Shown: positions 17,942 through 23,134 of the stretch, one piece after another
Layout: the number at the start of each line of letters is the position of its first letter
Numbering within the stretch: position 1 is the stretch's first letter
DNA from: Verrucomicrobium sp. BvORR106
GTDB taxonomy: Bacteria; Verrucomicrobiota; Verrucomicrobiia; Verrucomicrobiales; Verrucomicrobiaceae
Length of the DNA stretch: 64,000 nucleotides
Assembly (NCBI RefSeq): GCF_000739655.1
Contig: NZ_BATR01000096.1
Span: 62,001-126,000 of the forward strand
Reading direction: 5' to 3'
Notes under the pieces: generated by a model
The model's database searches: none
The model's input: the letters and a program-made list of their open reading frames with translations, nothing else
Told to the model about the DNA's origin: nothing
Program-made: the position numbers and the translations under genes

Positions 17942-18139
17942 TTAGTCGACGGCTTCCCAACAGACGAGGGAACTGGCGGGGATGACGAGCGGCTCCTGGC
18001 CATCCGTCTCAAAGCGCAGTTTCTCATGGAGCACCTTCACGCGGTGGGCGAGAACCACGCGGAGCGTCCCATCTGTGAGTGTCAGTTCGTAACGAGTGAG
18101 TTCTGGAGTGGAGTCAGGTTGAATCCCATCACTGGACAT
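17942..18139 (-). CDS. Small hypothetical protein
   Basis: 65 residues. ELTRYELTLTDGTLRVVLAH, RVKVLHEKLRFETDGQEPLV and IPASSLVCWEAVD suggest a small beta-rich domain. A 62-residue protein at 53091-53279 shows the same layout: Y at the start of the first strand, a G in the first turn, A-H, a DG/NG turn, a P before the last helix, and L-x2-W near the end. The two may be distant paralogues. No family is recognised. Confidence 0.5.
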   Translation of the reverse strand: MSSDGIQPDSTPELTRYELTLTDGTLRVVLAHRVKVLHEKLRFETDGQEPLVIPASSLVCWEAVD

Positions 18140-18315
18140 AGACCGTCGGACGCCGGAGGTTCAGCGGTGTATGTAAGATACCCTGTGCGCTGGGCCTCCT
18201 AGGCCGGGCGCAATAGTAATGCAGGGACCGAGCAAGGGAAGGGGATTTTTGGTATGGTTTCTAGAACCAAGGGGGGAGGGTGGCGACGATCTCCCAAGAC
18301 TGCAGTCCCAGTGAA

Positions 18316-19287
18316 TCACCGGTCCGACCAGCCCCACCAGTACCAAGCAGGCGACTGCGGGTCACGACGCATCTGAGCACCGGGGTGCAGAATGAGAGAG
18401 TGGCTGAGGTGGTAGTCCCGGGGGGAAGTGCCGGGCAGATAGGTGACGGGAACGGTGAGATACCAAGGGCTGGCAAAGGCTGGGATGTTGGGAAGCTCAG
18501 CCGGGTAGGGATAAGTGCCGTGGTGGGTGATTTCCTCGAGCTCAGCGGCAAGGCGATCGCCATGGACACGGGCCAAGTGTTCCTGTAACCGGCCTAGGCC
18601 GAGTGTCGCGGCGATGGCAAATGCGAGTGTGAGAACGCTCGGGGCGGCTACTTGCAAGGTGGGCGAGAGCCTGTGCCAGAGTGTGGACGGCCAAGTGGAC
18701 GGGATGGCGAGATCCGCGGAAGCCGGCGGCGGTGGCAGAAAGTCGCGGGCAGCAAAAATAGTGGCGACCAAGACGACGATGGCGGCCCAGATGGCCACGG
18801 GGATGTTGACAAACGGGTGGCGGTGAAACAACAGGGCGGCACCCACCGCAATGGCAAAAAGGGCAGCCCAGGCCTTATAACGGGACATCCGCTCTGGAGA
18901 GTTGGCGGGCGCCAAGGATGGCTGCAACTTGGAGGCTTTGCGGCAAAGGATGTGGCAGCTGAAAATGAGGAGGAGGGAGACCGTGGCAGTGGTAAGGTGC
19001 GAATGCGTCCAAAGGAGGTGGCTGCGCAAGTCATCATAGATGGTGTAGCCCTGTAGGAACATTGAGAACTCGATCATGACGATGCCTGAAATGGCGAAGC
19101 CAAGCGCATAGTAGCACCAACGTCTGGCGAAGTGTATGAACTCAATGGCGCGAGCTGAAAGGGCTGTAGGCTGAAGGAGCGCTGAGAGCAGACAGGCAGC
19201 GGGAAAGACCAGGATAAGTGCCGCAATCCCGAGAGCCACTTGATCAGGGATGCCCGTGGGCACACCGCCGGCAAAGAAGGGTTGCAT
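18316..19287 (-). CDS. Hypothetical polytopic membrane protein
   Basis: 323 residues with about six hydrophobic segments (near 16-38, 52-74, 94-112, 137-155, 160-178, 214-232). A C-terminal soluble region of roughly 90 residues follows (HGTYPYPAELPNIPAFASPW, YLTVPVTYLPGTSPRDYHLS). It is the third gene of an apparent operon: only 18 bp separate it from the membrane protein at 19306-20031, which is 17 bp from the acyl-carrier-like lipoprotein gene. No family is recognised. Confidence 0.65.
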   Translation of the reverse strand: MQPFFAGGVPTGIPDQVALGIAALILVFPAACLLSALLQPTALSARAIEFIHFARRWCYYALGFAISGIVMIEFSMFLQGYTIYDDLRSHLLWTHSHLTTATVSLLLIFSCHILCRKASKLQPSLAPANSPERMSRYKAWAALFAIAVGAALLFHRHPFVNIPVAIWAAIVVLVATIFAARDFLPPPPASADLAIPSTWPSTLWHRLSPTLQVAAPSVLTLAFAIAATLGLGRLQEHLARVHGDRLAAELEEITHHGTYPYPAELPNIPAFASPWYLTVPVTYLPGTSPRDYHLSHSLILHPGAQMRRDPQSPAWYWWGWSDR

Positions 19288-19305
19288 GGCAATTGGGGCG
19301 CTGGG

Positions 19306-20031
19306 TTAGGCGGCTTTCCGCCTGAGGGAATCGGGATGGTGGAGATAAAACAAGAAGAACAACCCGGCGACGGTGATGGGGTAGTACCAGCCCAGATAGC
19401 TATTCAAGAGGATGAAAAGAAAGCTCAGAGAATCCAGATAGGACCAGATGGAGAGAACAAGCGCCGCGGTGAGGAAGAGGGTGATGAGGACAAGCGGGCG
19501 GGATGGGCGATTCTGAGACCGGTGGGCGAGGAAACAAGCCAGGCCGGCAGCGAGGACGTTGGTGCCGGAGAAGATGCGCAGGTCGAGCAGCAGTGCCTGG
19601 AGGGTGTTTTGGTAGTGGCTGTGGATGTGTTCCTTGATGGCAGCAATCTTGTCGGAGAGGGGAAGGGTTTTCTTTTTGATCGCCGCAAGGGCCCGGTCAG
19701 CCGTGGACCTAAGCGTCGGAGTGGAATCTTCTGGTGTTGGTACGGGTGGGGTTGCGGTGACGTTGAGGATGTAGTCCTTGGGGTTGGTACGGAAGCTGGC
19801 GATCTCGGTTTCGATCATGACAACCTGAGTCGGGGTGAGGAGCTTTTGGGCCAGGTCCGTCTGGAGGGCTTTCTCGGTCGCGTCAATGGCGGGCGTGACG
19901 AGTTGCTCAGTCCTTAAGGAGACGTAGTCTTGCGCATACGCCTCGATGCGCTGTTGCCCGATGAAAGTGTATGCGAAACAACTGGCAAACAGAACGGCGA
20001 GAGCCAAATGCAGGGTCTTCAGAACAGGCAT
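19306..20031 (-). CDS. Hypothetical membrane protein with periplasmic loop
   Basis: 241 residues. An N-terminal signal-anchor (TLHLALAVLFASCFAYTFIG) is followed by about 120 polar, partly helical residues likely in the periplasm (TEKALQTDLAQKLLTPTQVV, ADRALAAIKKKTLPLSDKIA). Three closely spaced helices and a basic tail (HHPDSLRRKAA) end the protein. It is the middle gene of the three-gene set starting at 20762. No known family. Confidence 0.65.
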   Translation of the reverse strand: MPVLKTLHLALAVLFASCFAYTFIGQQRIEAYAQDYVSLRTEQLVTPAIDATEKALQTDLAQKLLTPTQVVMIETEIASFRTNPKDYILNVTATPPVPTPEDSTPTLRSTADRALAAIKKKTLPLSDKIAAIKEHIHSHYQNTLQALLLDLRIFSGTNVLAAGLACFLAHRSQNRPSRPLVLITLFLTAALVLSIWSYLDSLSFLFILLNSYLGWYYPITVAGLFFLFYLHHPDSLRRKAA

Positions 20032-20048
20032 GTGGCGAGGGGTTGGAG

Positions 20049-20762
20049 CTAGGGCTGGGCCTTCGGCTGAACCGGCGGGGCTACGGTGCCGGCAGGAGCG
20101 GCGGGACGGTTGCGTTGTTCCTTGAACTTGGCGGCGTCAGCCGGAGGCATGGCCATCACGACGGCTTTGTTTTTGAGCGCAATGCGTTCGGGCTCGGTGA
20201 GTTTCTGACCGAGCTTCTGTGCGGCGGCGGCTTCGAGCGCGGAGAGTTCCGGAACGAAGACCAGTTCGTACCCCCGCGGGTTGGGGAGCTTGCTAAGATC
20301 TTGATAAGCCCCCACTTGGGCGAGGCGAAGCGTGCCGTCGTGGGGCTCGTCGAGCTTCGGGGACGAGAATCTGGCCTTGGGGGCCTGGGAGACCGTGGTG
20401 ACAAACGCTCCGACTGTGAGCCGGGCGGGTAGGGGCGGAGTCCCCGGCGGAGGTTTGATGGGACCGAGGGCTTCGTCAGGGATGGTGATGTCCAGCGCTT
20501 CCTCAGTGGCCATCACGATCTCGACAACATCAAGATCATCAGCGCCGAGGGCGGCGAAGGTTGACTCGGGTTTGATGCTCTCAGGGCGAAGGCCGAGTTG
20601 CCGGGCAACGATGGCTTGCACCGCAGAGAAGGGGGCGGTCGATGCAGGCTCGGACTGGGCAGGTGTTGCCGAATGTGTCGGAGGAGGGGGCCTTTGATCG
20701 CAAGAAGCCAGACTGGCGGCGAGGATGACCAAGGGCAGAGCGATGGGGGAACTTCGTGACAT
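20049..20762 (-). CDS. Exported lipoprotein with acyl-carrier-protein-like domain lacking the attachment serine
   Basis: 237 residues from the ATG at 20762. The lipoprotein signal MSRSSPIALPLVILAASLAS is followed by Cys21. After a proline/serine spacer, residues 45-125 read like an acyl carrier protein (AVQAIVARQLGLRPESIKPE, TFAALGADDLDVVEIVMATE, EALDITIPDEALG). The DSL motif that carries 4'-phosphopantetheine is DDL here: Asp76 replaces Ser. It should therefore not carry an acyl chain and is predicted outside the cytoplasm. The C-terminal ~110 residues (ELSALEAAAAQKLGQKLTEP, ERIALKNKAV) are a separate helical region. It leads an apparent operon with two membrane proteins. Confidence 0.75.
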   Translation of the reverse strand: MSRSSPIALPLVILAASLASCDQRPPPPTHSATPAQSEPASTAPFSAVQAIVARQLGLRPESIKPESTFAALGADDLDVVEIVMATEEALDITIPDEALGPIKPPPGTPPLPARLTVGAFVTTVSQAPKARFSSPKLDEPHDGTLRLAQVGAYQDLSKLPNPRGYELVFVPELSALEAAAAQKLGQKLTEPERIALKNKAVVMAMPPADAAKFKEQRNRPAAPAGTVAPPVQPKAQP

Positions 20763-20927
20763 TTGAACTGGGGCAAATTTTTGGACCATTAAGGATCCAT
20801 CCTTTTTGCATCAGTTTACCTTGAGCGGGACGGCGTTTGAAACACAAAAAGTGGGACGCGTTTTTGCCATGCCGCGCTGGGGGGGGCAGCCTTCCGGCGA
20901 ACGCTTCGCGGTCGGATTGATGCCATT

Positions 20928-21007: not shown

Positions 21008-23134
21008 TCAGCGCTGCCTCCGATTCCGGCGCAGAATCAATCCCAGGGCTGCCACCAAAAGCAGCAGCCCACGCGTTGGCTCGGGAGTCACCACGAGGAT
21101 GCCGTATTGGTTGAAGAGGTCAAAGTTCCATTCCCAGTTTGCATCGGCCAGCGTTGGCAGGAGCCACATCTGTTCAGCCGTCAGCACGCCGGCGTTTAGG
21201 ACGCCAAAATCCAGCAGGTGGAAGGCGTCGCCCCAGGTGGGCAAGTAGCCGTTGAGTGGGTTGAATTGCAGGCTCTGTGCGACAGACAGGTTCAAGGCGC
21301 CAGTGATCTCCAGATGGTCGTGATTGCCCACTTGTTCCAGCTGCGCGGCAAACTGCGTGGGGATGGCCTCCACGGCTGTGCCGCCCACGTTGAAGGTGGC
21401 ACCGGCCACGTCAAACACCAGTTTGGCCCCGGCATTCACATACACCGTGCCCGCCACTTCCAGGGCTCCCACAGGGGAAGCTGCGCCTCCGCCCGCGGAG
21501 AGTTCAGCACCTGGGGCGCCGCCATACAGAAAGACGTCCCCTGTGATCCTGCCTGTGCCACCTGCCCGGGCCCCCGCGTACACATCCACGTTGCCGTAGA
21601 AGTTCGATGTATTAACCAGCAGTGTCCCTCGCAGGACTTCAGCCACCCCGATGGAACCGGTGCCGGTGGTGGTGGAGGCCACGTGTGAGGTGCCATCCAG
21701 GATCACCGTGCCTGTGGGGGCTGCTTCGTAGTACTTGATGGTGCCTCCGCTGGTGGTGGGATTGACCAGTTGATTCACATCCATGCCCTGCTCGCCCGCG
21801 ATCGCGATGCTACCTTGAAATGTTACGCTGCCTCCGCTTTCTGAAACCAAGTTAACGGAGCGGTAATCGCTCTCCAGGATCCGGATGTCTCCGGTGAAGG
21901 TGGCGTCATACGCATTGCCGTTGTGATTGATCTGGCCCACGCTCAACTTGTCAGTGTAGTCGGACACGGTGTTCATCACTGACACATCGCCATTGAAGGT
22001 GAAGTCACCCCGCAGGAGGAAGCCTGACTGGTGCGTGCCTGCCAGCAGCGTCTCACTCCAGGAGATTTCTGAGACATTTTCCCAGGCCACTCCGCTGGAG
22101 TTGGCTGCGGCGAGCACGATCTCAGATCCGTAGCGTGCGGTCACTTTCCCACCAAAGGACATGTCTGCCCCTTCAAAGATCATCTGCTGGTTGGTCTGAG
22201 CAATCAGCCAGAGTGATACGACGGTAGGAACTGCAGAGCCTCCTGTCAGATTGCCAGTGAACCGCAACTGCCGCTGCGCGGTGCCGCCGTGCAGGAGCAG
22301 GGCCCGTGCTCCGCTGAGAGCGGACAGGGCGATGTTGTAGCTGATGGTGGTGCCTCCGTTGGCGGCGCTGATCGTGCTGGCCGTCAGGTCCCATGTCACC
22401 GCTCCCGTGTCGGCAAAGTACAGAGTCTTGTTTCCGACGCCGAGGCTGTCTGCATAGGCTTGGGCTACGTAACCCGCTATGATGTAGACATCGCCTGTGA
22501 ACGTGTTGTGCCGGTTGAAAAGGATGCGGCCGCCGCTGGAAGTGGTGTTGCTGGTAACGGTCAGGTCTCCGTCTCCGCTGATCAAGCCATCCAGCGTCAC
22601 CCGGCGGAACGTGCTGGTGGAACCCCCTCCGACGCGGGTGAGCGTGAGGTTGTCCTCCAGCACCAGGTCTGCCCCCAGGGTCAAACTGCGGTGATCTGTC
22701 ACCGTGCCAGTGCCCAGCATGTTCAGCGTGAGAACCGGGTTCGTTCCGCCTGCAGTTGCTTGAAACACCAGTTTGGACCCCGCCGTTCCCGCAGCCGCCA
22801 GTTGTTTATCTGTGACCCCGTAGTCCGCGCCCGAAACAATGAGGCTGTTGATGTAGTAGGTGCCATCCAGCGTCAGTATGTCTCCGTTGCGGTCGAAGCC
22901 TCCCATGCTGATGCCTGACGGGTTGCCGGACGTCGTGCTCGGTGGGCCGCCTGACCAGTTTCCCGCCGTGGCCCATGAGTCATTGACCGTGCCCTGCCAG
23001 ACGGACTGGTCGTGCGTGAAACCCACCGCCACGGAAAAACTGAGGGTGTTGAGAAGCAGTTGCGCAATCGACAGGTTTGAAACCTTGCGCTGAAGAAAAG
23101 CTATGAGCCGGCGGGAGTGGGTTCTAGGCATCAT
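21008..23134 (-). CDS. PEP-CTERM-anchored autotransporter-associated beta-strand repeat protein
   Basis: 708 residues. An N-terminal export signal (LSIAQLLLNTLSFSVAVGF) leads to DQSVWQGTVNDSWATAGNWS, the usual opening of this class. A long Gly/Thr-rich beta-helix follows (GTGTVTDHRSLTLGADLVLE, LTLDGTYYINSLIVSGADYG). The C-terminus carries a PEP-CTERM signal: VVTPEPTRG (PEP at 684-686), the hydrophobic LLLLVAALGLIL, and RRNRRQR. Such proteins are processed by an exosortase, which is not in this window. The gene is divergent from the Verru_Chthon cassette at 23.6 kb, suggesting a linked surface role. Substrate unknown. Confidence 0.9.
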   Translation of the reverse strand: MMPRTHSRRLIAFLQRKVSNLSIAQLLLNTLSFSVAVGFTHDQSVWQGTVNDSWATAGNWSGGPPSTTSGNPSGISMGGFDRNGDILTLDGTYYINSLIVSGADYGVTDKQLAAAGTAGSKLVFQATAGGTNPVLTLNMLGTGTVTDHRSLTLGADLVLEDNLTLTRVGGGSTSTFRRVTLDGLISGDGDLTVTSNTTSSGGRILFNRHNTFTGDVYIIAGYVAQAYADSLGVGNKTLYFADTGAVTWDLTASTISAANGGTTISYNIALSALSGARALLLHGGTAQRQLRFTGNLTGGSAVPTVVSLWLIAQTNQQMIFEGADMSFGGKVTARYGSEIVLAAANSSGVAWENVSEISWSETLLAGTHQSGFLLRGDFTFNGDVSVMNTVSDYTDKLSVGQINHNGNAYDATFTGDIRILESDYRSVNLVSESGGSVTFQGSIAIAGEQGMDVNQLVNPTTSGGTIKYYEAAPTGTVILDGTSHVASTTTGTGSIGVAEVLRGTLLVNTSNFYGNVDVYAGARAGGTGRITGDVFLYGGAPGAELSAGGGAASPVGALEVAGTVYVNAGAKLVFDVAGATFNVGGTAVEAIPTQFAAQLEQVGNHDHLEITGALNLSVAQSLQFNPLNGYLPTWGDAFHLLDFGVLNAGVLTAEQMWLLPTLADANWEWNFDLFNQYGILVVTPEPTRGLLLLVAALGLILRRNRRQR

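Follow-up and report, generated by a model that had tools for sequence, protein, structure and literature searches.

A predicted lipoprotein of Verrucomicrobium with an acyl carrier protein domain lacking the attachment serine

Results

Gene layout and lipoprotein signal

In the present study, a two-domain protein of Verrucomicrobium sp. BvORR106, designated ORF1, was found to carry behind a lipoprotein signal an acyl carrier protein (ACP) domain in which aspartate occupies the place of the phosphopantetheine serine. ACP is normally the shuttle of fat synthesis in the cell interior and is among the best-studied cytoplasmic proteins, whereas the signal on ORF1 predicts a location outside the cytoplasm. 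The window analysed is a stretch of 64,000 nucleotides (G000:C114:62001-126000) from a genome of 8.7 Mb in 209 contigs, and the relevant features are as follows.

20049..20762, minus strand: ORF1, ACP-domain lipoprotein, 237 aa from the ATG at 20762
20703..20762, minus strand: predicted signal peptide of ORF1, MSRSSPIALPLVILAASLAS, followed by Cys21 (from sequence; lipobox Cys shared by 5 homologues)
20700..20702, minus strand: Cys21 of ORF1, predicted lipidated residue, with Asp next (invariant alignment column)
20385..20630, minus strand: ACP domain of ORF1, residues 45-126, four helices (PF00550, AF2, Foldseek)
20535..20537, minus strand: Asp76 of ORF1, aligned with the phosphopantetheine Ser36 of E. 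coli AcpP (alignment)
20097..20348, minus strand: C-terminal domain of ORF1, residues ~139-222, unnamed family (hhalign, dN/dS)
19306..20031, minus strand: ORF2, membrane protein of 241 aa, large loop after the first transmembrane segment (TM)
18316..19287, minus strand: ORF3, membrane protein of 323 aa with ~6 TMs and a soluble C-terminus of ~90 aa (hydropathy only)

An in-frame ATG at 20789 provides an alternative start for ORF1. The lipoprotein signal reported in the initial annotation was upheld, as a signal peptide is followed by a lipobox Cys present in all five full-length members of the ORF1 family in the alignment, and a simple lipobox rule was positive for 9 of 11 exported ACPs and for none of the 40 short DSL ACPs used as a control. 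The two proteins missed by the rule, from the congener Verrucomicrobium sp. BvORR034 (L054) and from the distant homologue L056, have a visible LTAC and ITGC, respectively. Export of ORF1 is well supported by these sequence features, from which we also infer lipidation and a location in the envelope. In E. coli, Asp at position +2 after the lipidated Cys leads to inner-membrane retention; since the residue after the Cys is Asp in ORF1 and Asn or Gly in its relatives, no claim on sorting is made for ORF1.

ACP domain and Asp76

The ACP-like fold assigned to ORF1 in the initial annotation was borne out by profile matches and structure prediction, and the range given there for the domain (residues 45-125) was right. 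PF00550 matched ORF1 at E=1.7e-10, with 41.4 bits against a curated cut-off of 20.8. The AcpP subfamily models matched at E=1.7e-15 (NF002148) to 1e-14, all below their own cut-offs, and the AcpP equivalog TIGR00517 was not reached (53.6 versus 70.45). The closest solved relatives in a sequence search of the PDB were ACPs (E=5e-10). The AF2 model of ORF1, built from 4 sequences with a mean pLDDT of 69.5 and a block pLDDT of 67-89 over the ACP stretch, has helices at residues 44-56, 76-90, 96-99 and 117-126. When compared with the PDB using Foldseek, the best 50 matches listed were all ACPs or ACP-containing complexes, with TM-scores by target of 0.71-0.87, and 40 had E<=0.001. A four-helix ACP fold is strongly supported by this prediction and by homology.

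Asp76 is the first residue of helix II and takes the position of Ser36, and the DSL serine that receives 4'-phosphopantetheine is absent. The replacement of this serine, described previously for this protein, proved to be a family-wide feature and not a local mutation, with Asp in all six members of the ORF1 clade. Given the established chemistry of attachment, aspartate at position 36 cannot take phosphopantetheine, and the ACP domain of ORF1 is thus fixed in the apo state. Compared with AcpP-type ACPs (PF00550, TIGR00517), ORF1 shares the four-helix fold and the helix II acids D35, D38, E41, E47 and D56, but differs in being a predicted exported lipoprotein, in having Asp for Ser36, in the loss of the acid at position 30 and in the change of Glu53 to Thr/Ser. 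One residue is deleted before LGADDLD, a 12-column insertion follows helix III in the loop to helix IV, a C-terminal domain is added, and the net charge is lower.

Distribution and selection

Three members of the genus have well-assembled genomes (G000, G001 and G003, the last a single 8.2-Mb contig), and each of them carries ORF1; the fourth member, G002, is an incomplete genome. The orthologues in congeners were 82% and 73% identical to ORF1. Across 84,980 species genomes scanned, full-length homologues turned up in two MAGs, one of Verrucomicrobia (L055) and one of Lentisphaerae (L056). Each is 44% identical to ORF1 and has a lipobox, and the Ser36 region reads SDDLD or ADDLD. Since a profile of the C-terminal domain detected the ORF1 family in only the genus Verrucomicrobium within a sample of 388 Verrucomicrobiota, the family is patchy. 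A search of the same 388 genomes with the DNA pattern LG[AS]DDLD returned known loci and two candidates (L090 and L091), which were rejected as antisense readings of other genes. Against phages and plasmids, ORF1 gave only partial matches, covering 21-31% of its length and none over the C-terminal domain; those with an annotation were ACPs.

Among the three congeners, dN/dS was 0.10, 0.19 and 0.27 in the ACP domain, 0.36-0.63 in the signal and linker, and lowest in the C-terminal domain (0.03, 0.04 and 0.06). These low values indicate that ORF1 is a maintained protein and not a relic, and purifying selection, together with distant homologues of identical layout, excludes chance as the source of this architecture.

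C-terminal domain

The domain at residues ~139-222 was overlooked in the initial annotation, and no Pfam family and no PDB chain matched it. A profile search detected a stand-alone relative of 120 aa (L114) in another genome of the same order. The domain shares a homologous core with A7 (E=6e-16, hhalign; 2e-14, blastp to L125), a family of 8 small stand-alone proteins from Verrucomicrobia, Pantoea and Cupriavidus, the latter two on plasmids. The Cupriavidus member is 44% identical to the C-terminal domain over 63 residues, and its gene encodes an N-terminal hydrophobic stretch. Unlike ORF1, the A7 proteins have no ACP domain and end in an invariant R-x-Y-x-D...W-x-x-W motif, which is absent from ORF1.

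On a Cupriavidus campinensis plasmid (L127 5932-6971), the relative of the C-terminal domain adjoins a Tdi1-domain immunity protein, and the gamma-mobile-trio genes gmtX and gmtY, with a recombinase of this trio, are nearby. This single neighbourhood is considered a lead only.

ORF2, ORF3 and neighbouring genes

The three minus-strand ORFs are separated, as described initially, by 17 bp (ORF1-ORF2) and 18 bp (ORF2-ORF3). The description of ORF2 and ORF3 as unrecognised membrane proteins, one with a large loop, also agrees with our results: neither reached the cut-off of any Pfam or NCBIfam family, and hydropathy predicts for ORF2 one TM, a loop of ~125 aa and then at least two TMs. Among 57 genomes searched, the sole orthologue of ORF2 was in G003 (81%) and that of ORF3 in G001 (65%), with none outside the genus. 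ORF3 had no match among plasmids, and its AF2 model, from two sequences, had a pLDDT of 46.

The neighbourhood is conserved in part. In G003, ORF1 adjoins ORF2, window positions 18290-19230 are missing, and the first ~20 codons of ORF3 run into downstream sequence, a remnant indicating that ORF3 was lost there. In G001, ~19290-20097 of the window is missing, including ORF2, and ORF1 adjoins ORF3; judged from sequence, this absence might reflect a loss there or a gain elsewhere. The neighbours of the distant homologues in L055 and L056 are unrelated genes, and scans for promoters and terminators performed no better than shuffles. Co-conservation of the three genes, named in the initial annotation as a test of its reading, thus fails in part: ORF2 and ORF3 are missing independently of each other, and a single three-gene unit is not supported; the "operon" is a loose one. 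Since ORF1 is kept while ORF2 and ORF3 vary, we take ORF1 as the core and the two membrane proteins as no more than accessories.

Downstream of ORF3, a 65-aa ORF (window 17942-18139, minus strand) has a conserved counterpart in G003, which there forms one continuous reading frame with the remnant of ORF3. Upstream of ORF1 lies a gene (window 21008-23134, minus strand) whose large secreted product has a PEP-CTERM-like end; it is kept in G001, and a sialidase-like gene takes its place in G003.

Other exported ACPs in Verrucomicrobiales

By profile searches and inspection of individual loci, at least six further ACP-domain lipoproteins were identified in the order, all without the C-terminal domain of ORF1. 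The survey is not exhaustive, as ordinary AcpP swamps profile searches, including that with profile A2 across the phylum.

L165 (G780): exported ACP, Asp at position 36
L062 (G228): exported ACP, Asp at position 36, sister of L160
L160 (G841): exported ACP, Ser at position 36
L060 (G285): exported ACP, Ser at position 36
L140 (G898): exported ACP, Ser at position 36
L158 (G882): exported ACP, Ser at position 36

In a tree of 21 ACP domains, L165 grouped with the ORF1 family (100/100), and the other five fell among AcpP. In L165, the C-terminal domain and the greater part of helix IV are absent, yet the protein belongs to the same clade as ORF1, which indicates that the ACP and C-terminal domains are not obligate partners. 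The exported label requires 3 changes on the best tree, only 1 of which is forced by well-supported branches, and on these sequences either a single origin or several origins would be possible.

The residues D35, L37, D38, E41, E47 and D56 were unchanged in all 11 exported ACPs. The acid at position 30 was absent from all 11 and present in all 10 AcpPs compared, and position 53 was Ser/Thr in 11/11 exported ACPs versus an acid in 8 of the 10 AcpPs. Within the compared set, Asp at position 36 was confined to exported ACPs (7 of 11). The metal sites described for ACP comprise residues 30, 35 and 38 (site A) and 47, 51, 53 and 56 (site B) (PMC12469350); in the exported proteins, residues 35, 38, 47 and 56 are kept, and the acid is lost at 30 in site A and at 53 in site B.

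Several settings of ACP genes were also observed. The locus L164 1-9001 (G898:C19:3000-12000) is an integron-like cassette array in which a 64-nt repeat occurs 14 times at intervals of ~400-1640 bp, and one cassette (L164 4380-4748, minus strand) holds the gene for a Ser-bearing exported ACP lipoprotein. In G285 (L166 7755-8093 and 8141-8632), a Ser-bearing exported ACP lipoprotein is encoded directly 3' of a dnaX-like gene. Next come the gene for an exported protein with a Secretin_N domain (E=1.4e-8) and a ybaB-like gene. A different kind of membrane-linked ACP was found at L085 1450-2463 (minus strand, G352), where two TMs and a zinc-ribbon-like N-terminus are combined with a DSL-bearing ACP domain at the C-terminus.

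Discussion

Herein, we propose that ORF1 is an exported, lipid-anchored two-domain protein in which an apo-locked ACP domain serves as a docking module and the C-terminal domain as a second binding surface, with ORF2 and ORF3 as optional partners; as a whole, we consider this proposal about as likely to be right as wrong. ORF1 would be anchored by its lipid at a membrane surface facing the periplasm, either the outer face of the inner membrane or the outer membrane. The ACP part was probably recruited for protein-protein docking through the conserved acidic helix II, the C-terminal domain, as the most constrained part, is probably a second binding surface, and ORF2 and ORF3, where present, are likely but optional membrane partners. 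The fold, supported by prediction and homology, the loss of the serine, the lipobox and the purifying selection form the basis of this reading, on which lipidation, location, docking and partners are suggested. The docking role is proposed because the conserved residues form the surface by which ACPs meet their partners, although the acids of helix II may have been retained for folding rather than for binding. The earlier suggestion that the ACP fold has been put to structural or docking use in the envelope thus fits the conserved acidic helix II, while docking itself remains at the level of inference.

The constraint on the C-terminal domain might also be explained if the ACP domain were a mere folded spacer holding off the membrane the domain that does the work. 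The lower dN/dS of the C-terminal domain (0.03-0.06 versus 0.10-0.27) and its occurrence alone in other bacteria favour this idea, but a spacer would not need the invariant D35, D38, E41 and E47, and the exported ACPs lacking the C-terminal domain (L165, L062, L160, L060, L140 and L158) indicate that the ACP part has a use of its own; we regard a spacer as unlikely. Somewhat less probable still is the operon view of the initial annotation, by which ORF1, ORF2 and ORF3 would form one obligate membrane complex. Same-strand genes only 17 and 18 bp apart, with ORF1 beside ORF2 in G003 and beside ORF3 in G001, are consistent with such a complex, whereas the ~20 ORF3 codons left in G003, the lack of ORF2 in G001, the lack of other matches to ORF2 and ORF3 in 57 genomes and the different neighbours of the distant ORF1 homologues argue against it.

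Cationic antimicrobial peptides bind cytoplasmic ACPs via helix II (PMC13256389), and ORF1 might accordingly be an acidic envelope decoy for such peptides, with conserved helix II acids and an Asp for Ser that adds a negative charge close to the end of the helix at which peptides are reported to bind. Against this explanation, exported ACP domains are less acidic (net charge -3 to -13) than AcpP (-12 to -18), and mature ORF1 is nearly neutral (net -2); we consider it quite improbable. The lost serine, the residue deleted before LGADDLD and the 12-column insertion after helix III might instead suggest a decaying AcpP duplicate with a signal-like N-terminus arising by chance, but strong purifying selection and the identical layout with a retained lipobox in distant genomes refute this origin, to which we assign hardly any probability.

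ACPs that act as structural subunits usually carry phosphopantetheine and reside in the cytoplasm or the interior of organelles. Compared with the mitochondrial FeS-cluster/complex I ACP, the AcpP of MukBEF and the Ycf2-FtsHi ACP (PMC4991935), all with entries among the PDB matches of ORF1, the lipid-anchored docking protein proposed here would likewise place an ACP fold within a protein assembly, but it lacks the serine and is predicted to be exported. In the open-access literature, of which our coverage was incomplete, no paper that refers to an exported, secreted, periplasmic or lipoprotein ACP was found, and a paper on mitochondrial ACP contained nothing on mutants of the serine. A bolder and rather improbable idea is that exported ACPs form an extracytoplasmic class of their own, in which members with Ser, charged before or after export, would present a thiol or acyl arm in the envelope, and the Ser-less members such as ORF1 would be their non-loadable docking counterparts.

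The automatic annotation of such genes as "acyl carrier protein" would be misleading. The related exported ACPs in other Verrucomicrobiota point to a class of envelope proteins that has drawn little attention. An ACP fold that follows a lipoprotein signal in several lineages, and in which the defining serine is optional, would mean that this fold has uses beyond acyl transfer and beyond the cytoplasm.
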